IMG/VR virus record: IMGVR_UViG_3300017813_000002
Coordinates: 1 to 23,553 of that record
Length of the DNA: 23,553 nt
Reading direction: 5' to 3' (one strand)
Source: a virus
Of the stretch, positions 2,775 through 13,680 are shown one piece after another. Both the position numbers and the translations under genes were made by a program. Position 1 is the first letter of the stretch; every line of letters starts with the position of its first letter. The notes below the pieces were generated by a model. The model was not told where the DNA came from. It was given only the letters and a program-made list of their open reading frames with translations, and did not search any database.

Positions 2775-3377
2775 ATGACTACTCACAAAAACATCTATAT
2801 CGCCCTGTCTGCTGCCCAAACCGAAATGGGTCCAGTAGTTAAAGGAGCGGTTAATCCGCACTTTCGCAGTAAATATGCAGATCTTGCTGACGTAATGCAG
2901 GTGGCTTTGCCTGCCTTAAATAAACACGGCATCGCAGCTTGGCACAGCATTGTTGCAGCAGACGGCGCAAGCCATATGCGTACCACATTGAGCCACGGCG
3001 AAACAGATACCCATATTTCATGCGATGTGCCGCTAATTGTTGGCAAGAACGATATGCAGGGCATGAAGTCGGCTACAACCTATGCCAAGCGGATTGGCAT
3101 GGAAAGCCTCACTGGCATCGCGCCAGAGGACGATGACGGCAACGCAGCAGCGAAAGCAGCGCCAAAGAACGAACCGCCAAAGCCGATCAGCGCCGAACAG
3201 TATCAGTCAATCAGCGACCTGATCTTCGACACCGAGACGGACGAAGCCAAGTTCTGCCAATTCATGAAGGTTGAGGATCTGCACCAGCTAAACGCAGCGC
3301 AGGCCAAAGACGCCATCGCAATGCTCAACAAAAAGAAAGCCAAGATGGAGGCCGATAATGGAACAGCGGACGAGTGA
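2775..3377 (+). CDS. erf: ERF-family single-strand annealing protein
   Basis: This 200-residue protein matches the ERF family (P22 Erf type), which binds ssDNA and anneals complementary strands in phage recombination. Visible family features: IYIALSAAQTEMGPVVKGA and NPHFRSKYADLADVM near the N-terminus, a THIS-type strand before VPL, and QGMKSATTYAKRIGMESLTGI followed by the acidic EDDDGNAA. The last ~70 residues are a variable, charged C-terminal part after a Pro/Lys linker. It overlaps by 20 bases with a YqaJ-type exonuclease, giving a two-component recombinase like lambda Bet/Exo. An AGGA site precedes the start. Confidence 0.93.
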   Translation: MTTHKNIYIALSAAQTEMGPVVKGAVNPHFRSKYADLADVMQVALPALNKHGIAAWHSIVAADGASHMRTTLSHGETDTHISCDVPLIVGKNDMQGMKSATTYAKRIGMESLTGIAPEDDDGNAAAKAAPKNEPPKPISAEQYQSISDLIFDTETDEAKFCQFMKVEDLHQLNAAQAKDAIAMLNKKKAKMEADNGTADE

Positions 3378-3975
3378 ATGGTTCGCGGCGCGGCTGGGGT
3401 GCGTAACAGCATCCCGGACCGCAGACGTGATGGCCAAGACCAAAAGCGGATACAGCACCAGCCGAGCAAACTACATGGCCCAGCTTATCACCGAGCGCCT
3501 GACGCAAACGCCGACAGAAGGCTTTAGCAGCGCGGCGATGCAATGGGGGACCGAGACCGAGCCGCAAGCACGGGCCGCATACGAACTTATGACGGGCGCA
3601 GAGGTGGTCGAGGAAGGTTTCGTTGCCCACCCTACCATAGAAGGCTTTGGCGCGTCTCCTGACGGCCTTGTGGGCGCGGACGGGCTGCTAGAAATCAAAT
3701 GCCCCAACAGCGCCACCCACATCGACACGCTGCTGGCCGAAAAGGTGCCTGCGAAATACGTCACGCAGATGGAGGTGCAGATGCTTTGCACCGGGCGGCA
3801 GTGGTGCGATTTCGTTAGCTTCGATCCAAGGCTGCCGGGTGATATGAATTACTGGTGCCAGCGGGTCCAAGCGGATCCGGTGCGGCAGGCCGAGATTGCC
3901 GAGGAAGTGCAGAAATTCCTGGGCGAACTCGACGACAAGCTAAACGCGCTGAAAGCCAAGTTTGATGCCGTATAA
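3358..3975 (+). CDS. YqaJ/lambda-type 5'-3' exonuclease
   Basis: This 205-residue protein belongs to the YqaJ viral recombinase family (PD-(D/E)xK fold, lambda Exo relatives), which digests the 5' strand of duplex DNA so that the partner ERF protein can anneal the exposed 3' strand. Visible residues: RTSEWFAARLGCVTASR at the N-terminus, WGTETEP (E66 or E68), SPDGL (D102) and LEIKCP (E112, K114), in the order and spacing of the lambda Exo active site. The following THIDTLL and the segment MEVQMLCTGRQWCDFVSFDPR fit the rest of the core. A strong GGAGG site lies inside the end of erf, so the two are translationally coupled. Length is typical and no catalytic residue seems missing. Confidence 0.94.
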   Translation: MEQRTSEWFAARLGCVTASRTADVMAKTKSGYSTSRANYMAQLITERLTQTPTEGFSSAAMQWGTETEPQARAAYELMTGAEVVEEGFVAHPTIEGFGASPDGLVGADGLLEIKCPNSATHIDTLLAEKVPAKYVTQMEVQMLCTGRQWCDFVSFDPRLPGDMNYWCQRVQADPVRQAEIAEEVQKFLGELDDKLNALKAKFDAV

Positions 3976-4626: not shown

Positions 4627-4817
4627 TGCGGTTTCTTATCAAAGCCCTTGTCATGCGCCCCATCGCCATCCGCAAGCTAAACGCGCTCTACGCCGAGCGG
4701 TTTCATATACAGGAAGCCATCAACCGGGCGCGCAAGCATCGGCGCAAGGTGACGGACCTGTATTTCAGCGCGCGGCAAAACACCGAGAAATGTAGATACT
4801 GGGAAAGCTGGACTTGA
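4626..4817 (+). CDS. Small basic hypothetical protein
   Basis: This 63-residue protein begins MRFLIKALVMRPIAIRKLNA. It is rich in Arg and Lys with aromatic residues near the end (CRYWESWT). The middle (AERFHIQEAINRARKHRRKV) is likely a long amphipathic helix. I do not recognise its family. Its ATG overlaps the stop of the DUF2312 gene (TGATG) and its stop overlaps the TTG start of the HNH gene, so it is firmly inside the operon. The charge suggests nucleic-acid or protein binding; no more can be said. Confidence 0.7.
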   Translation: MRFLIKALVMRPIAIRKLNALYAERFHIQEAINRARKHRRKVTDLYFSARQNTEKCRYWESWT

Positions 4818-5179
4818 AGCGCAGCCCGCTAAAACAAAAGACGCCATTGCGTAAGGTTTCGGCCAAGCGCAAGGCGTACAGAGCGTCTCAGGAAGGCCAA
4901 GAGGCGCTTGAGCATATGCGGGCCGTAAAACAGCTTCCCTGCGCTGTATGCGGCTCTCCGCCGCCCTCAGATGCTCACCATGTGATACATGACCGCTTTG
5001 GCAGCCGAAAGGCCAGCGACTTCGATGTCATCCCGCTTTGCAAGGCCCACCATCAGGACGGGCCAGACGCAATCCACAACAACAAGCGGCAATGGCGCGA
5101 AAAGTATGGGCCGGATTATTTATATCTCGCAGGGATATTTGAGTTGCTGGGCAAGCATTTCGATGATGTGGGGGAATAG
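4814..5179 (+). CDS. HNH nuclease of the Ref/DUF968/NinG-like type
   Basis: This 121-residue protein has a basic N-terminal tail (MKRSPLKQKTPLRKVSAKRK) followed by a zinc-ribbon-style HNH core: C43-x2-C46, H55-H56, C76-x2-H79-H80 and H88. The patterns SDAHHVIHD and VIPLCKAHHQDGPDAIH match phage recombination-associated HNH proteins of the Ref (RecA-dependent nuclease), DUF968 and NinG groups; by eye I cannot choose between them. It is the last gene of the recombination operon, after the NinB-like protein, so junction or strand cleavage during recombination is likely. The start is a TTG at 4814 that overlaps the previous stop, with a GGAAAG site. Its 3' end overlaps the opposing 51-residue gene by 60 bases. 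Confidence 0.85.
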   Translation: MKRSPLKQKTPLRKVSAKRKAYRASQEGQEALEHMRAVKQLPCAVCGSPPPSDAHHVIHDRFGSRKASDFDVIPLCKAHHQDGPDAIHNNKRQWREKYGPDYLYLAGIFELLGKHFDDVGE

Positions 5180-5277: not shown

Positions 5278-6381
5278 TCATAGGTTCACCTTCACTCGAC
5301 TGACTTCCCCAAGGTTTCGATGGTAAGTAATTCCCTGAAACTGCGCCCGCGCTGAATAGCTGTTGCTGGCCGCATAGGCATCCCGTGCTGTCACCGCCCG
5401 CAATTGCTCAACTTGTACACCGCCAACGTCCCGCATGTTAGTGTGATGTAAGTGTCCGGTGAAATAGTACCGATGCCGTGTTGCGCCCCACATCTCCGGC
5501 CACTCGTCCGCTAAATGTAGCACAAGCCGCTCCGCCTTGGCTTTGTCGCCGTGCTGCGAGGCCAGCAAGCACAGGCCAAACTGGTGGACAAAGAACTCGC
5601 CGGGACGTTTCTGCACGTTGATCCGGCTGTCGTTGCGGTAACGCTCCGCCAGAGCGAACATGACGGCCATGTAGGCGCTTTCATCGTGGTTTCCGCGCTG
5701 CACCACCACAGTCACCTTGTCGTGCTTCTGTGCGGCCATTTCAGCCGCTGCGGCGATTGCGTAGATAGCGGCCTCAAGGTTGCGATAATGTCGGCTGTCC
5801 ACATCGAGGACGTGCTTGCTCGCCGGGGTCATGTTGGTGTTGTCGTTGGCGTGCAGCAAATCGCCCAGCGCTATAATTATGGCTTCCGAAGATGCTGGGG
5901 AAGATTGAACGCACTGCCCGATGCCGGACTGGATCCGATCCACCGCAATGTCGGTGTCGTAAGCCTCGCCCGTTTCCTTCGCCCATGCGCGCATCCCGAT
6001 GTGGGCGTCCGGGATGGGATAAACCGTTAGCAGATCGGCGTCGCTCGGCCCCGTCTGCTTTGGCGGCAATTCAATTGCTGGCAATCCGGTGAAATATTCT
6101 TTGATCCGATCTAGCGTGTCGGTCGTATCATTATCTCTAGGCTGCTGAAAGTAGAGCGATGCGCCGTCAGTCTTTACCCAGCCGCTGTGCAGAATACCAA
6201 CGTCCTGCATCCCAGCTTCCGACATAGCGCCCTGCACCGCTGGGTCCGTAGTCACATATTTTTGAGCGCGCTTAAGTCTTTCGCGGATGGTGCTTTCATT
6301 TCTACCTAGTTTTCGGGCTATTTCTCGCTGAGACATGCCCTTCTTGTGCAGGTCATAGGCTTCGCGCTGCTCAGGTGTCAT
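5278..6381 (-). CDS. HTH-metallophosphoesterase fusion protein
   Basis: This 367-residue protein has two parts. Residues 1-45 form a resolvase-like helix-turn-helix (MTPEQREAYDLHKKGMSQRE, then IARKLGRNESTIRERLKRAQ). Residues ~118-320 form a calcineurin-like metallophosphoesterase: DAH at 125-127, GDLLHAND at 173-180 (D174), GNHD at 230-233, HGD at 277-279 and TGHLHH at 308-313. All main metal ligands are present, so it should be active on a phosphodiester, possibly nucleic acid. Similar phage proteins are usually annotated as DNA-repair exonuclease-like. Its ATG overlaps the Rz1 end by 11 bases, so it is transcribed with the lysis genes. The substrate is unknown. Confidence 0.85.
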   Translation of the reverse strand: MTPEQREAYDLHKKGMSQREIARKLGRNESTIRERLKRAQKYVTTDPAVQGAMSEAGMQDVGILHSGWVKTDGASLYFQQPRDNDTTDTLDRIKEYFTGLPAIELPPKQTGPSDADLLTVYPIPDAHIGMRAWAKETGEAYDTDIAVDRIQSGIGQCVQSSPASSEAIIIALGDLLHANDNTNMTPASKHVLDVDSRHYRNLEAAIYAIAAAAEMAAQKHDKVTVVVQRGNHDESAYMAVMFALAERYRNDSRINVQKRPGEFFVHQFGLCLLASQHGDKAKAERLVLHLADEWPEMWGATRHRYYFTGHLHHTNMRDVGGVQVEQLRAVTARDAYAASNSYSARAQFQGITYHRNLGEVSRVKVNL

Positions 6382-8606: not shown

Positions 8607-9368
8607 TCATATGGTCTGACGAAGCGTCACATAGAAGATGCGCCGCTCACTAAACTGCCCGGTCAAGATGACGGGTCGACGCCAGTTTACCACATAAGTG
8701 CGTGATTGTGGAATAGTAACCAATCCACCTGTTGAGACCGCCTGCGGATCCACGCCTTCGACAGCAAAATCAACCGCGTTGGGTTTGATCGAAACGCCCG
8801 TGAATACACCCGGCGCAAACCCTGCAAGTGCCAAATCCCCAGCCGGGATATCAACCAGAACGCCTGTGCTGATTGATGAAGGCGCAGCGCCAGCGACCGC
8901 CAGATCGGCTGCGTCAGGCTTCACAGCAACGCCAGTGAATATCTGCGGCGCTACAGCGGCGAACTGGATCTCTAGCTTGGGAAGGCCATTTGCATACTCA
9001 GGCACGCCACCAGCGAGCGCAGTATCGGCAGCCGGAACCGCAATTGACTTACCTGCGGCAACCGTGGGCGCATTAGCTGCGACGATTGTGTTTGCCTGCG
9101 GAACAACAACGGCGTCGCCAAGCGAAATTGTCGGCAATGCTGTGCCGATTGTCAGACCGTTGGCCGGGGAAAATACAGACACGCCCGACGAAACAATTGG
9201 CACGCTCGCAGCGACGTTTAGGTTAGCCGCTGGGGACGTGAGCAGCACGCCCGTAGAGACGACAGGCGCAACGCCAGCAATGGCAATCGACGCCGCCGGG
9301 ATGTCGATGTAAAGGACGGTCGTATCGTCTGCGAGTGGGGCGTCTGATAAGGCTGCAAATGCCAGCAT
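8607..9368 (-). CDS. Ten-unit PAA-repeat tail/fibre-like protein
   Basis: This 253-residue protein consists of about ten repeats of 18-24 residues around the pattern PAAxLAxAGxAPxVxTGVxxx, as in PAASIAIAGVAPVVSTGV and PAGDLALAGFAPGVFTGV. The first 16 residues (MLAFAALSDAPLADDT) and the last unit (NWRRPVILTGQFSERRI) are shared with the next gene upstream (9369-9752), so the two are paralogues. Repeats of this kind occur in phage structural proteins near tail fibres and probably build an elongated beta-structure. No enzyme motif is visible. The start codon follows the paralogue stop directly. A structural, surface-exposed role is inferred. Confidence 0.72.
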   Translation of the reverse strand: MLAFAALSDAPLADDTTVLYIDIPAASIAIAGVAPVVSTGVLLTSPAANLNVAASVPIVSSGVSVFSPANGLTIGTALPTISLGDAVVVPQANTIVAANAPTVAAGKSIAVPAADTALAGGVPEYANGLPKLEIQFAAVAPQIFTGVAVKPDAADLAVAGAAPSSISTGVLVDIPAGDLALAGFAPGVFTGVSIKPNAVDFAVEGVDPQAVSTGGLVTIPQSRTYVVNWRRPVILTGQFSERRIFYVTLRQTI

Positions 9369-9752
9369 TTAAGTGCTCCCCGTCTGCCGTAGGTTGACGA
9401 ACTTAATCCGCCGCTCGCTGAACAGCCCAGTCAAAATGCGGGGTCTGTTCCATTCGATATCGTAAACAGCCAACGCATCAGGATCTATTTTTACGCCTGT
9501 TGAAACAGCAGCAGGCGCGCGCTTGATAAGCGTAATCCGACCCGGCTCTGGTTTGACGGTCACGCCGCTGGCAATAATTGGCGAAGCACCTGCTAAATTT
9601 ACATTAGCGGCTGGCGGGAAGATACGTCTGGCATTACCGACTTGATCTGGCGCAATTCCCGTTACAGCAATATTAGCCGCCGGAACCGCAATAAAGCGAA
9701 CCTCGGTATCATCCGCCAGCGGCGTATCTGCTATGGCGGCGAATGCCAGCAT
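9369..9752 (-). CDS. Four-unit PAA-repeat protein, paralogue of its neighbour
   Basis: This 127-residue protein has the same head (MLAFAAIADTPLADDTEV) and tail (WNRPRILTGLFSERRI) as the 253-residue protein next to it, but only about four repeat units instead of ten. Units include PAANIAVTGIAPDQV and PAANVNLAGASPIIASGV. It most likely arose by tandem gene duplication followed by repeat gain or loss. It probably serves in the same structure. It starts four bases after the tail assembly chaperone-like gene. No catalytic motif is seen. Confidence 0.72.
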   Translation of the reverse strand: MLAFAAIADTPLADDTEVRFIAVPAANIAVTGIAPDQVGNARRIFPPAANVNLAGASPIIASGVTVKPEPGRITLIKRAPAAVSTGVKIDPDALAVYDIEWNRPRILTGLFSERRIKFVNLRQTGST

Positions 9753-9756
9753 CGGC

Positions 9757-10218
9757 TTACTCCGGTTTTACCGGCCAATCCCCTTCGGCCAGATGCGGGA
9801 AGTTTACATGATCCGTGATGTCACGCAAAGCCTGCCGATAGGTTGTCATGGCGGCGTTCATCGTTACGTCAGTCAGAGCAAAATAATCGGTCCCGGCCAG
9901 CAACGTGTCACGCTTGGCGCGAACTTCCTTTGATTTGGCTGCGTCACGATCTGCAATCTGCTGTTCAGTTAAAGCAACAACCGTTTTTGTTAGCGTCCAC
10001 GCCCCGTCCTTGAGCACTGGCATGTTGCTATGCTGCAAACGATGGGTCATCGGATCGTAATCTGGTGCGCCTTCATAGCCCACCGGATACATCCCGTAAG
10101 AAGCCATCGTCTCCGCTGAGACAGTTTTCGGAAAGCTAGTATTTGGGTTGTCACGCCGCAAGTCGCCGACCGTGTATGGGTACTGGTCAATCTGGCCGTT
10201 TGTGATTTTTACGAACAT
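9757..10218 (-). CDS. Phage tail assembly chaperone-like protein (fibre-associated)
   Basis: The C-terminal half of this 153-residue protein, from AKRDTLLAGTDYFALTD through TYRQALRDITDHVNFPHLAE, matches the Phage_tail_APC type domain found in genes beside tail fibres. The N-terminal half (ITNGQIDQYPYTVGDLRRDN and VGYEGAPDYDPMTH) resembles the partner-binding region of such proteins. The first residues, ITNGQIDQ, also occur in the structural protein at 13138-13680, hinting at a shared attachment element. A good AGGAG site lies before the start. It probably helps the fibres to fold or assemble. Confidence 0.8.
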   Translation of the reverse strand: MFVKITNGQIDQYPYTVGDLRRDNPNTSFPKTVSAETMASYGMYPVGYEGAPDYDPMTHRLQHSNMPVLKDGAWTLTKTVVALTEQQIADRDAAKSKEVRAKRDTLLAGTDYFALTDVTMNAAMTTYRQALRDITDHVNFPHLAEGDWPVKPE

Positions 10219-10244: not shown

Positions 10245-11834
10245 TTATTCGACGCCCAAGTTAAACGTAAAGACGTCATCTTGCGATTGCCCCATCATAA
10301 ACATTTGCGTGCCATCTTCTCTAAAGAAAAGGCCCTGTGGGCTTGGTTCAAAATTCACCAGACTAAAGTTCTGAGAATAGGATGCAGACGAAATATCCCA
10401 AGCCGTGCTCAAATCGTATTCGTTAATTGATAAGTTAGTATCTCCTAAAATAAACATTTTAAGTCCATCTGACTTAAAAAACAAACTTTCTGGGTTGGCA
10501 GCTTGGGGAGCGACACTAAAAGTTTGCAGGAAAGATGCAGAAGAAACGTCCCAAGCTGTGCTTAAATCGTATTCATGCACCGCGTCTGAACCAACCCCAC
10601 AAATATACATCTTTGCGCCGTCGGATCGAAAGAACACCGCTCTTGGCCCGCCCTCTTTCGCGCTAACGTCAAAGGCCTGCGAATAAGTTGCGGAAGAAAC
10701 GTCCCAAGCTGTGCTTAAATCGTATTCGTTAACACTATCGCTACTACTGCCTATGACATACATTTTTAAACCGTCGGGCTTAAAGAAAAGGCCCTCTGGG
10801 GTTGTTTCTTGGCTACCAACACTAAAAGTTTGCAAAAAAGACGCCGACAAAACATCCCAAGCCGTGCTCAAATCATATTCGTCAACGGCATTTCCGCTGT
10901 TGTCCGAAATATACATTTTAAGGCCGTCTGTCTTAAAGTGTATATCTGTTGGTAGGTTTCCTTGTGCGTTAATGTTAAAACCGCCGACAGTAAATTGATT
11001 AATAACGTCGCTTGATGCGCCTGCAATATACATCGCAGAGCCATCTGATTTGAAGAATACACCTCGTGGCGAAGTATCTTGAACGCTAGAACTTTGCAGA
11101 AAGGATGCGGAAGAAACATCCCAAGCTGTGCTTAGGTCATATTCGTAAACGTTATCTCCGGCAGACCCCAATACATAAAGTTTGCTTCCGTCGGGTTTGA
11201 AGAACAAACTTTCGGGAGACCCATCTTGGCTATTAACACTAAAGTTTTGCAGATAGGATGCAGACGAAATATCCCAAGCCGTGCTCAAGTCATATTCACT
11301 AACACTGTCGCTGGTGCTGCCTACAATATACATCTTGAGGCCGTCTTGCTTTAGGAAAACGTCTTTCAGAGCGCCTTCTTGACTTTGAACATTAAAGTTT
11401 TGCAGGTAAGAAGCAGACGAAATGTCCCAAGCTGTGCTTAGGTCATATTCGTAAACGATGTCAGCAGAAGAGCCTGCGACATAAAGTTTTGCCCCATCAG
11501 GTTTAAAGAAAATCCCTCTTGGGTTTGCGACTTCAACCGACAAATCAAAGTTTTGAGAATAGGATGCAGACGAAATATCCCAAGCTGTGCTCAACTCGTA
11601 TTCATTTATATCGTCCCCACCGCTTCCTGCTACATACATTTTAAGCCCATCTGGCTTAAAAAATATTCCTGCTGGCGCGTTTTCTTGCGAAGCGACACTA
11701 AAACTGCGAAGATTGTTGGTCGTCGAAATATCCCAACCTGGGGGGGAGTTGTAGTAAACAAATGACAAATCCCAAGCGCCCTCTGGGCTTGTAGGCGCAG
11801 CAGCGCCCATCTGCATGAGCCTTGCGATGCTCAT
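10245..11834 (-). CDS. Ten-repeat beta-propeller-like fibre or receptor-binding protein
   Basis: The 529 residues hold ten repeats of about 50 residues. Each has an FFKPDGLKMYVxGSxxDxVxEYD core followed by LSTAWDxSSASYxQNFSV and a QExxPxG turn. The pattern resembles YncE-type beta-propeller blades, so the protein probably forms one or more propellers or a long beta-stack. The last unit ends DDVFTFNLGVE without the STAWD half. Unit 5 lacks about 13 residues (its NQFTVGG replaces EYDLSTAWD). Such proteins in marine phages sit with tail fibres and may bind host glycans. The base composition looks more A/T-rich than in neighbouring genes, as if acquired separately. The gene overlaps the upstream fibre gene by four bases. 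Confidence 0.85.
   Translation of the reverse strand: MSIARLMQMGAAAPTSPEGAWDLSFVYYNSPPGWDISTTNNLRSFSVASQENAPAGIFFKPDGLKMYVAGSGGDDINEYELSTAWDISSASYSQNFDLSVEVANPRGIFFKPDGAKLYVAGSSADIVYEYDLSTAWDISSASYLQNFNVQSQEGALKDVFLKQDGLKMYIVGSTSDSVSEYDLSTAWDISSASYLQNFSVNSQDGSPESLFFKPDGSKLYVLGSAGDNVYEYDLSTAWDVSSASFLQSSSVQDTSPRGVFFKSDGSAMYIAGASSDVINQFTVGGFNINAQGNLPTDIHFKTDGLKMYISDNSGNAVDEYDLSTAWDVLSASFLQTFSVGSQETTPEGLFFKPDGLKMYVIGSSSDSVNEYDLSTAWDVSSATYSQAFDVSAKEGGPRAVFFRSDGAKMYICGVGSDAVHEYDLSTAWDVSSASFLQTFSVAPQAANPESLFFKSDGLKMFILGDTNLSINEYDLSTAWDISSASYSQNFSLVNFEPSPQGLFFREDGTQMFMMGQSQDDVFTFNLGVE
10290..11740. repeat. Tandem DNA repeat, about 150-bp period
   Basis: On the plus strand, TCCCAAGC(T/C)GTGCT followed by (C/T)A(A/G)(A/G)TC(G/A)TATTC recurs at about 10395, 10550, 10705, 10855, 11120, 11270, 11425 and 11580. 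The spacing is 150-155 bases except for one step of about 262 bases, where the unit around 10990-11090 is degenerate. These are the DNA of the protein repeats above. High identity between units makes recombination, and assembly collapse or expansion, likely here. Confidence 0.9.
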
Positions 11835-12595
11835 GCCAGCGCATCCCCAGCTTGGAAGCCGTACCAGTTGGTGCCGCCGTCTACCGTATAGAAAACAAAC
11901 ACGTCAGTTTCTCCCGAAGCTGGCGCATCAGGTGCTGTACCGCCCGGCCAATCAACGGACGCAGGCCATGTCAGCGTGTGCGTCCCGCCAGCGGTCACTT
12001 TCAGCGTAAAGCCATAGCTGTCGTTGGTGGTCAGATTGACGCCGCTGTAGTCGAAAGTGAATGTCGTATTGCCGCTGGTTGTCAGCGTGAACGAGTTGCC
12101 TTCATCGCAATCAACCGTTGGCGTGGTGCCCGACAAGGAAACAAGCGTTTCAATATATGAAGTCGCCTGCACTTCCTCAGACAAAATCACATTGCCGTTT
12201 GCGTCTGCGGTGACAGCCTTGCTCGCCTCAGATGTGCCAAGCGTTGTGATGTCGTTGTAGTTCAACTCTGCGGTCGTGGCTGTAAGGCCGTCCAGAACGT
12301 CCAGATCCGCCGCCGCTGCCGTGACAAACACCAGAGCGTTGCCCGTCAGGTTTAGCGCCGCATCTGCGTTGCTGCTGCTTTCAACACTGCGCGCAAGAGT
12401 GGTCCCGCTGGCCGTGTAAGTGCCTGTGCCGATTTCCCAGTTGTCGCCATCCTCGATGACGTAACGCACTGTGTTGGTATCAGCGACACCAGCATCTGCG
12501 AAGGATTGATAACCAGCCACAGCGGAACCGAGGGTGATTGTCCCGGTGCCGGTTGTGGCGGTATCCATTTTGGCGCGGTTTACAAACTTGGCCAT
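11831..12595 (-). CDS. Tail fibre-like structural protein
   Basis: This 254-residue protein starts MAKFVNRAKMDTATTGTGTI. The N-terminal domain (about 1-95), with GSAVAGYQSFADAGVAD, VRYVIEDGDNWEIGTGTYTA and a following TTLARSV, is a module frequent at the N-terminus of marine and alphaproteobacterial phage fibres. A middle linker (LDGLTATTAELNYND) typical of fibre shafts leads to a C-terminal beta-sandwich with ESGNTTFTFDYS-like strands and TDVFVFYTVDGGTNWYG. It is probably a tail fibre or its tip. The start at 12595 was chosen for its AGGTGG site. No chaperone domain or enzymatic motif is visible. Confidence 0.75.
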   Translation of the reverse strand: MAKFVNRAKMDTATTGTGTITLGSAVAGYQSFADAGVADTNTVRYVIEDGDNWEIGTGTYTASGTTLARSVESSSNADAALNLTGNALVFVTAAAADLDVLDGLTATTAELNYNDITTLGTSEASKAVTADANGNVILSEEVQATSYIETLVSLSGTTPTVDCDEGNSFTLTTSGNTTFTFDYSGVNLTTNDSYGFTLKVTAGGTHTLTWPASVDWPGGTAPDAPASGETDVFVFYTVDGGTNWYGFQAGDALA

Positions 12596-12610
12596 TGGGT
12601 CCACCTATTC

Positions 12611-13042
12611 TTAGCTAACTGTGAAGGTAAAGATACCCGAAGAGTTCCAAACGATTTTGAACTCTGTGCCGTCGCCAGCAGATTGCGAACCGTCGAAGTC
12701 GATAAACGCCAAGGGTGGATCGTCAGCATCGGTGTCGTTGTAGATAACGCCGTAGCTTGCTGTGATCGAACCGCCGCTTGCTGTCCATGTCACATCGTCA
12801 GCGTCAAAGCTGGCGTCGTTGGTTGTGACCGTGGAAACGGTGACGTTCGCCAATGCCTGACCGCCTGCCGTGTATCCGGTGCCTGCTGTGGCCTCGGTCC
12901 CAGTGATGCCTGCCAGAGTGTCGTCTGTTGCGTCAAATGTCGCTGCGGAATACAGCTTTACTTTATAAGTGTCTCCGGAGGCATTAGAGCCATCCGCAAA
13001 CAGTTTTGCTGTGTGGTTATACAGCGAGATCGTGACTGCCAT
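12611..13042 (-). CDS. Beta-rich phage structural protein, first gene after the fibre promoter
   Basis: This 143-residue protein starts MAVTISLYNHTAKLFADGSN. It is rich in Thr, Ser, Gly and Asp with regular strands. The segments YKVKLYSAATFDATDDTLAG and GTGYTAGGQALANVTV fit a family of phage proteins usually labelled only as structural or hypothetical. I infer a virion protein near the tail or fibre. A good GGAGG site and a sigma70-like promoter lie just upstream, so it opens a separate transcript for the host-recognition block. Confidence 0.7.
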   Translation of the reverse strand: MAVTISLYNHTAKLFADGSNASGDTYKVKLYSAATFDATDDTLAGITGTEATAGTGYTAGGQALANVTVSTVTTNDASFDADDVTWTASGGSITASYGVIYNDTDADDPPLAFIDFDGSQSAGDGTEFKIVWNSSGIFTFTVS

Positions 13043-13069
13043 GTCGGCCTCCGTTGGTTAGATGGGGCG

Positions 13070-13098
13070 ATTATGCCATAAACTTATGATTAGGGCAA
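13070..13098 (-). promoter_or_regulatory. Promoter before the fibre block
   Basis: On the minus strand TTGCCC (13093-13098) is 17 bases from CATAAT (13070-13075, five of six to TATAAT). Transcription would begin near 13063, with a ~20-base leader and a GGAGG ribosome site. The 95-base gap 13043-13137 is one of the few real gaps in the late operon and holds nothing else but a weak GGCG/CGCC hairpin. Confidence 0.6.
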
Positions 13099-13137
13099 TT
13101 GGCGCTGCAAGACGCCCCGATGTTGCTCGCAGCGATG

Positions 13138-13680
13138 TTAGACTATTCCGCCGTTGGGGTTTAGAATGACAGCAATGGTATCACAGCTAAACCGCAAAGC
13201 GTTAATATTGTTTGAAGCGCCCGCCATCGTTGTGTTTGCGAAGAAACCTTGGACGACCGGGTCTCCTGCCGCTCCATCGCAAATTGAGACAAGTGTCCCG
13301 TCGGAAAAATTAAAATACCCCATTGCAATTGCTGCCGTACTTTCGTGTCTTACATGTCCAATTTTTGCGGGCGTCGACCATGTGCTGCCATTATTGGTAG
13401 AATATTCAATAGTTACATCTTGGTCATCGGTACCTGTTCCTTCTCGTACCAGCACCTTAAACTCAACTCCTGCATAATCGTCTAAATTAGTGAAAACCGC
13501 AGTGCCGCCAGATGTTGTTGCAAATGTTCCGGCTACCTGCGCCTGCGTGGCAAACTTAGGCGCGCTGCTGTCGCCCTCTGCCATCGCAATAGGGTTGTCC
13601 CGCAAAGCCGTCATGAGCGGCTGCGTAATAGGGCTGTCTTGGTCGATCTGCCCGTTGGTGATTGCCGTATAGGTTGCCAT
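13138..13680 (-). CDS. Phage structural protein with ITNGQIDQ head
   Basis: This 180-residue protein starts MATYTAITNGQIDQDSPITQ, then TALRDNPIAMAEGDSSAP. This opening is common in phage structural proteins of marine and alphaproteobacterial phages. The remainder is strand-rich, with EFKVLVREGTG and EYSTNNGSTWSTPAKIG suggesting a beta-sandwich. The TNGQIDQ motif reappears in the chaperone-like protein at 9757-10218. It immediately follows the large tail hub-like gene, so a place at the tail tip or fibre base is likely. No catalytic motif. Confidence 0.72.
   Translation of the reverse strand: MATYTAITNGQIDQDSPITQPLMTALRDNPIAMAEGDSSAPKFATQAQVAGTFATTSGGTAVFTNLDDYAGVEFKVLVREGTGTDDQDVTIEYSTNNGSTWSTPAKIGHVRHESTAAIAMGYFNFSDGTLVSICDGAAGDPVVQGFFANTTMAGASNNINALRFSCDTIAVILNPNGGIV

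Follow-up and report, generated by a model that had tools for sequence, protein, structure and literature searches.

Gene content of the locus

The window analyzed here spans an entire IMG/VR virus record (23,553 bases). Profile and open reading frame annotation identified it as part of a tailed phage encoding a capsid protein (PF05065), a tape measure protein, and tail proteins, after which come a tail-tip region, an amidase gene, and replication and recombination genes. In the recombination set (positions 2775 to 3975 and 4814 to 5179 on the plus strand and 112 to 489 on the minus strand), which could assist module exchange, genes for an ERF annealing protein, a YqaJ exonuclease, and an SSB are accompanied by a DUF968/RecA-dependent-nuclease-like gene.

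The gene under study, designated PROP, occupies positions 10245 to 11834 of the minus strand, stop codon included, and encodes a presumed receptor-binding protein of 529 residues. An earlier note on this DNA had placed a ten-unit repeat protein at these positions, and its coordinates and unit number were right, the region being a single open reading frame with ten units. Pfam profiles SGL (54.5 bits; cut-off, 26.3) and Lactonase (47.5 bits; cut-off, 21.7) each matched PROP over two stretches, and every match to the NCBIfam profiles was below the cut-off. Upstream, on the same strand, a gene for a tail-fibre-like protein (11831 to 12604; phrog_9017) overlaps PROP by 4 nucleotides. It is separated from the preceding tail protein gene by two small tail-region genes encoding 143 and 180 residues (12611 to 13680, minus strand), the longer product being best conserved over its first ~40 residues. 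Directly after PROP lies a gene (9757 to 10218, minus strand) for a tail-fibre assembly chaperone of the Phage_tail_APC type (PF16778; 52.1 bits, above the curated cut-off of 26.6), presumed to be cognate to PROP.

Repeat units of PROP

The ten units, of the FFKPDG type, start at residues 57, 108, 159, 210, 259, 298, 349, 400, 451, and 502, corresponding to spacings of 51, 51, 51, 49, 39, 51, 51, 51, and 51 residues. According to these spacings, unit 5 (residues 259 to 297; positions 10944 to 11060, minus strand) is reduced to 39 residues by the absence of 12, and two residues are missing from unit 4. The presence of one shortened unit had been correctly recognized: the long interval separating two STAWD motifs measures 264 nucleotides instead of the 306 expected for two units, close to the values of about 262 and 300 reported previously.

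The units had also been described as nearly identical in DNA, which they are not. The seven full-length units (21 pairs) displayed mean identities of only 63.5% for nucleotides and 58% for amino acids, and Tandem Repeats Finder recovered only 2.7 copies in PROP. The between-unit DNA similarity of PROP was 0.569 (median, 0.646), the 24th value from the bottom among 106 runs in viral loci. At codons specifying the same residue in different units, identity at the third position was 0.59 in comparison to a mean of 0.44 for synonymous shuffles, and none of 500 shuffles reached the observed value. This excess indicates that the units share ancestry or past conversion, although not of recent date.

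Unit numbers in homologues

Searches with PROP as the query returned 5 viral contigs and 19 phage records, including Lentibacter phage ICBM2, Roseobacter phages CRP-2, -9, -13, and -738, and Synechococcus and Maribacter phages, all with less than 60% identity. For marine phages, a likely receptor-binding family is thereby named, the members of which are mostly deposited as hypothetical proteins. In the homologues, the units are grouped by fives; a strand of the YDxxxASYDSxSFSV type leads into each block, and the last unit of the block is devoid of the STAWD loop. An alignment of 13 five-unit blocks was used as the query for a wider search; this query might favor loci with such blocks but does not set run length. 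In viral contigs, the search yielded at least 563 relatives, and the top 80 were retained; in genome contigs, it yielded 406, from which 79 loci were retained.

Units were counted with a 26-residue unit profile on the open frames of all loci collected, excluding the 26 of 265 runs that were cut by contig ends. Multiples of five accounted for 212 of the 239 untruncated runs, with 5 units in 164, 10 in 45, and 15 in 3; the remaining 27 comprised 1, 2, 3, 4, 8, or 9 units. After clustering of the runs of at least three units at 70% identity, 111 of the 157 clusters had 5 units, 30 had 10, 3 had 15, and 13 had other numbers. Runs of 5, 10, or 15 units also made up 30 of the 42 untruncated runs in loci chosen via the chaperone rather than the propeller, and 7 of 24 in loci chosen via the fibre gene, where the remainder were mostly single matches (13 runs). 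Inspection by eye indicated that several of the runs departing from fives contain a degenerate unit missed by the profile (e.g., L051, L092, and L094), and the exceptions that appear to be real are L129, with 8 units, and L140 and L177, with 4. In some homologues (L003, L004, L005, L007, and L219), the rings form separate linked domains or genes.

Fifteen-unit versions of ~800 residues, in which the first seam spans 39 to 40 residues, were detected in L049, L054, L100, L284, L287, and L288, and are presumably three rings in one chain. The five-unit domain was also present in genome contigs (L111 to L189) whose assignments include Pelagibacteraceae, Patescibacteria, Bacteroidetes, and archaea, and some copies lie within very large open reading frames; these could be cell surface proteins, prophages, or binning errors.

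Two predicted five-bladed propellers

The AlphaFold2 model of PROP, generated with 31 homologues (32 sequences), had a pLDDT of 92.7 and a pTM of 0.82, with four strands in each full unit; the model of L069, a homologue with a seam of 56 residues, had values of 94.2 and 0.86, respectively. With the runs quantized in fives, the model is consistent with rings of five four-stranded blades. Each 51-residue unit would form one blade, units 1 to 5 (residues 57 to 282; positions 10989 to 11666, minus strand) making up ring 1 and units 6 to 10 (residues 298 to 529; positions 10248 to 10943, minus strand) making up ring 2, an assignment drawn from the units, the model, and the ranges of the PDB alignments. 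By the same evidence, ring 1 would be closed by an N-terminal outer (D) strand (residues 33 to 50; positions 11685 to 11738, minus strand).

The best whole-length PDB matches of the PROP model were two-propeller chains, such as LRP6 E1E2 (Z score, 16.1; rmsd, 17.9; 383 residues aligned), and those of the L069 model were of the same kind. The Foldseek PDB list contained mostly two-propeller eukaryotic chains with 9 to 14% identity and TM-scores below 0.45, and was taken as an indication of fold class only. The fold search against viral models retrieved deposited relatives and no convincing named function. The ranges of the single-propeller alignments were tallied from 50 PDB rows per model following removal of the rows with more than 230 aligned residues (21 of 50 for PROP and 24 of 50 for L069). 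For PROP, 14 of the 29 remaining rows covered ring 1 alone, 2 covered ring 2 alone, and 13 extended from residues 19 to 32 to residues 493 to 529. The distribution was similar for L069 (n = 26), with 14 rows on ring 1, 1 on ring 2, and 11 joining the N-terminus to ring 2.

These ranges bear on the possibility that PROP is a single closed ring of ten blades, one of which would have a shortened outer strand. Ten units in one chain are found in sortilin (Vps10), which forms one ring of ten, and a published account indicates that ten-bladed rings exist and that some ten-repeat proteins could be either one ring or two rings of five (PMC2716378). In PROP, however, the single-propeller matches split at the seam into those of one half and those of the other, and the homologues include many free-standing five-unit domains and genes in addition to showing counts in fives. 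We consider a ten-bladed ring to be highly improbable. Structure prediction had been suggested in the earlier note as a means to verify closure with ten blades, and the AlphaFold2 model and the PDB ranges fit two rings of five instead.

The seam and proposed closure of the second ring

In ten-unit proteins, the odd spacing is located at gap 5. It amounts to 39 to 41 residues in PROP and 9 others, 54 to 59 in most others, and 51 in a few, and short seams were found again in the chaperone-chosen loci. As the short unit occupies the 5|6 boundary in many homologues, it represents an inherited boundary. Judging from these sequence comparisons, short unit 5, which provides the final blade of ring 1 and the seam, is most likely a conserved feature at the junction between two five-bladed rings rather than a recent deletion. 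A change in repeat number by partial loss of a unit, as previously envisaged, does not fit a seam conserved in many homologues or numbers that move in fives. The length of unit 5 would be accounted for by the seam, since the chain would leave ring 1 without the usual loop and the first half of the outer strand (STAWDISSASYLQ).

The seam itself (residues 284 to 297, GGFNINAQGNLPTD; positions 10944 to 10985, minus strand) is the putative second half of the strand closing ring 2. The first half would be provided by GAWDLSFVYY (residues 19 to 28; positions 11751 to 11780, minus strand), an extra N-terminal half-strand element that most likely packs into ring 2, so that the closing strand of this ring would be composed of the N-terminus and the seam. 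This split closure is suggested by the alignment ranges: rows covering ring 1 start at residues 31 to 50, those joining the N-terminus to ring 2 start at residues 19 to 32, and the element at residues 19 to 28 is therefore the probable contributor to ring 2. Assignment of the N-terminus to a ring in this manner uses the first and last aligned residues, not coordinates.

The distribution of the elements differs between the two classes of seams. In most long-seam proteins, an insertion containing proline interrupts the outer strand at its middle, both at the N-terminus and at the seam; short-seam proteins have an extra WDLSYAYYD-like element at the N-terminus instead. Two N-terminal W[DN] elements were detected in 10 of 13 short-seam and none of 28 long-seam proteins. 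Using a strict profile, with repeated sequences removed by signature, the seam element was found in 27 of 29 proteins with a long seam and none of 17 with a short one, and a pair of N-terminal elements passed in 8 of the 17 short-seam and none of the 29 long-seam proteins; the first element of PROP itself fails this profile.

That failure speaks for an alternative in which each ring is closed by its own neighboring strand and GAWDLSFVYY, close to the leader, is only linking or ornamental. Such plain closure is used by L074 and by the linked domains of L003 and L004. Against it stand the 13 of 29 single-propeller PDB alignments that join residues 19 to 32 to the C-terminal ring, the association of the N-terminal element with the short seam, and the confidence with which GAWDLSFVYY is modeled (pLDDT block means of 89 and 86 over residues 21 to 40). 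Plain closure of both rings thus appears to be a minority possibility, albeit one of some weight, and we favor split closure of ring 2.

Ring 1 and ring 2 of PROP are 56% alike. A recent duplication of ring 1 generating ring 2 was considered and rejected, since the identity of the two rings within short-seam proteins (0.563; 10 pairs) hardly exceeded that between proteins (0.552; 90 pairs). In long-seam proteins, the identity between ring 1 and ring 2 was somewhat higher within (0.675) than between (0.609) proteins. Copying of units 1 to 5, in order, as units 6 to 10 was also rejected, the pairwise unit identities showing no such register.

A probable exchangeable adhesin slot with its own chaperone class

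The gene order fibre, propeller, chaperone recurs among relatives of the window. Viral loci in which five or more units form a run numbered 82; a relative of the chaperone was present in 66 and a relative of the fibre gene in 39. The chaperone encoded beside short-seam propellers (present in 11 of 12 cases) was on average 66% identical to that of the window, versus 38% beside long-seam propellers (25 of 29). Of the 46 loci chosen via the chaperone, 44 were tabulated (L049 and L091 were left out). Where chaperone identity was at least 56% and the upstream open reading frame was complete, a propeller was located upstream in 12 of 12 loci, some of which are near-duplicates, and the seam spanned 39 to 40 residues in the 10 loci where the run was resolved. 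Below 56% identity, the upstream gene encoded a propeller of either seam kind or an unrelated protein.

The same slot accommodates other proteins. In the tabulated loci recovered with the fibre gene (18 of 80), it was mostly filled by proteins of ~290 to 390 residues, and in 12 of these 18 loci an 'LM.AAG'-like leader followed the fibre gene, usually with a chaperone next. The leader of PROP (residues 1 to 18; positions 11781 to 11834, minus strand), delineated from the model and the slot comparison, resembles those at the start of unrelated adhesins in this slot; residues 3 to 11 are modeled as a helix of low confidence. Relatives with other adhesins share with the fibre gene product its N-terminal ~100 residues and its C-terminal part. 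The clearest case of exchange is L208, in which the fibre gene is 86% identical, the flanking genes 73% and 67%, and the chaperone 52%, and the adhesin is different. By capsid, the nearest relative is L011 (95%; tail protein, 83%), which encodes a 1,322-residue protein that has only its first ~97 residues in common with the fibre gene product. Because related loci such as L208 and L011 have other proteins in the slot, a joint exchange of adhesin and chaperone between related phages is well supported. When 22 loci were retrieved by means of the tail protein encoded upstream, none contained a unit run in the stretch compared, but many of them end soon after that gene. L219, which lies on the same contig as L020 (capsid, 89%), carries two single-ring propeller genes and a chaperone gene upstream of the capsid gene; therefore, the group does possess the gene, and the adhesin module can also lie elsewhere in the genome.

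We propose, with a probability of about 0.75, that PROP is a phage adhesin composed of two tandem five-bladed propellers with a split-closure seam, encoded in an exchangeable slot (fibre gene, leader plus adhesin, chaperone) that has its own class of tail-fibre chaperone. The protein would be located in the virion, where it likely serves as a receptor binder that grips the host, its rings probably recognizing a sugar or a protein of the host surface. An enzymatic role, as a lactonase or a glycan hydrolase, would account for the Pfam SGL and Lactonase matches above the cut-offs, and a structural spacer at the tail tip may also be considered. Both are unlikely, since unrelated proteins that start with a similar leader also occupy the slot, with a fibre chaperone next to them, which is the pattern of a receptor-binding module.

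A broader proposal, which we regard as doubtful at this stage, is that this adhesin family gains and loses only whole five-bladed rings, that a large branch of it uses a split closing strand, that the chaperone holds the ring open or completes its closure, and that phages and cells may have the scaffold in common, given the occurrence of the five-unit domain in genome contigs. As a propeller has to close, the repeat number would change by entire rings. The first half of the split strand, at the N-terminus, would be made first and the second half some 260 residues later. If correct, action of the chaperone on ring closure would explain why the chaperone lineage tracks the seam type. The present analysis replaces a recent deletion in a repeat by a testable rule, according to which the repeat number of the adhesin moves by whole rings, and draws attention to a chaperone with a possible role in ring closure. 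With nearly the same blade in proteins of one, two, or three rings, the family also provides a natural set useful for the study of the evolution of closed-repeat proteins.

Base composition and the question of recent acquisition

The GC content of PROP (0.444) and its GC3 (0.425) compare with means of 0.551 and 0.618 for the 34 other genes of the record. The comparison with neighboring genes proposed in the earlier note was thus performed, and among the 35 genes PROP ranked lowest in GC content and deviated most in codon use (z = −7.5), its codon use not being equal to that of the neighbors. The chaperone gene is not A/T-rich (GC, 0.524). Propeller runs (n = 104) were on average 6.6 GC points below their own contigs. 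On contigs with a GC content of at least 0.53 (n = 22), the mean deficit was 10.5 points, in comparison to 12.2 for PROP, and 18 of these 22 runs had a deficit of 8 points or more. The A/T-richness noted previously is therefore real but mostly a family trait, and since low GC is family-wide, it constitutes weak evidence for acquisition and loses its value as a sign of a recent event.

A comparison of the window by blastn with the loci collected returned, for the propeller/chaperone region, only short or low-identity pieces, the longer ones being ~64 to 72% identical. Recent transfer from a near donor was rejected, as blastn revealed no near DNA match among these loci. Recent acquisition of a ten-bladed propeller in which one unit has just been partly deleted, resulting in a host-range switch, had been suggested on the basis of the repeats and the unusual composition. 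The GC content and codon use of PROP, which differ from those of its neighbors, speak for this scenario, as does the lack of the gene in the stretch compared for L011, the closest relative by capsid. Nonetheless, it is the least probable of the explanations considered, since the short unit is present at the same place in many diverged homologues, the units are only ~60% alike in DNA, A/T-richness extends to the family, and no near donor was found by blastn among the loci collected. The proposal of a receptor-binding protein gained by recombination therefore holds in part: a propeller lies at a receptor-binding position in a slot for module exchange, where it would presumably bind the host, and neither a recent origin nor a host-range switch was supported.

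Relation to known systems

A five-bladed propeller is present in the receptor-binding protein gp45 of Staphylococcus phage phi11, in which an N-terminal strand closes the last blade together with three C-terminal strands (PMC4901313). Each gp45 monomer combines a single propeller with a triple-helical stem and a tower at the C-terminus, whereas PROP consists of two rings and almost nothing else. Proteins of the gp45 type are located on the baseplate and bind a sugar of the host cell wall. No stem or tower of the gp45 type is apparent in the PROP model, which contains the 9-residue leader helix and otherwise propeller strands, and gp45 was not among the 12 PDB sequences matched by PROP.

Homologous units (31 to 43% identity) occur in Lentibacter phage vB_LenP_ICBM2 (vBLenPICBM2__51) and Roseobacter phages CRP-2, -9, -13, and -738. 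The ICBM2 protein comprises one five-unit ring and a C-terminal domain and is flanked by tail assembly chaperone genes, and that of CRP-13 contains several rings in 1,213 residues; both are annotated as hypothetical.

The TAPE domain of EML1 has two propellers per chain, and a blade of its C-terminal propeller is assembled from distant parts of the sequence (PMC4761370). The EML1 structure (4ci8) aligns to the L069 model over residues 23 to 535 (Z score, 14.8; rmsd, 8.2; 334 residues aligned). A likeness of PROP to an EML-type split blade is suggested by alignment ranges only, and EML rings are made of WD repeats, have more blades, and belong to a eukaryotic microtubule protein; no homology is claimed.

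For Alteromonas phages V22 and A5, two reports describe a tail fibre and its cognate chaperone as a host-recognition module common to distant phages (PMC10579305 and PMC7289586). The chaperone domain is DUF4376 in that module, as opposed to Phage_tail_APC (PF16778) in the window, and the word propeller appears in neither report. Searches of the open-licence literature listed no description of the PROP family or of phage propellers with split closure.

Additional genes of the record

Two adjoining genes of the minus strand (8607 to 9368 and 9369 to 9752) encode proteins with a common start (MLAFAA..DxPLADD) and repetitive bodies, which matched no family; gene starts of the MLGFxPLASAPLADDG type are present in many relatives. 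The 367-residue product of the gene at positions 5278 to 6381 (minus strand) has an N-terminal HTH/sigma-70 region 4 as its sole match, and relatives of this protein were found in L003 (30%) and L208 (67%).
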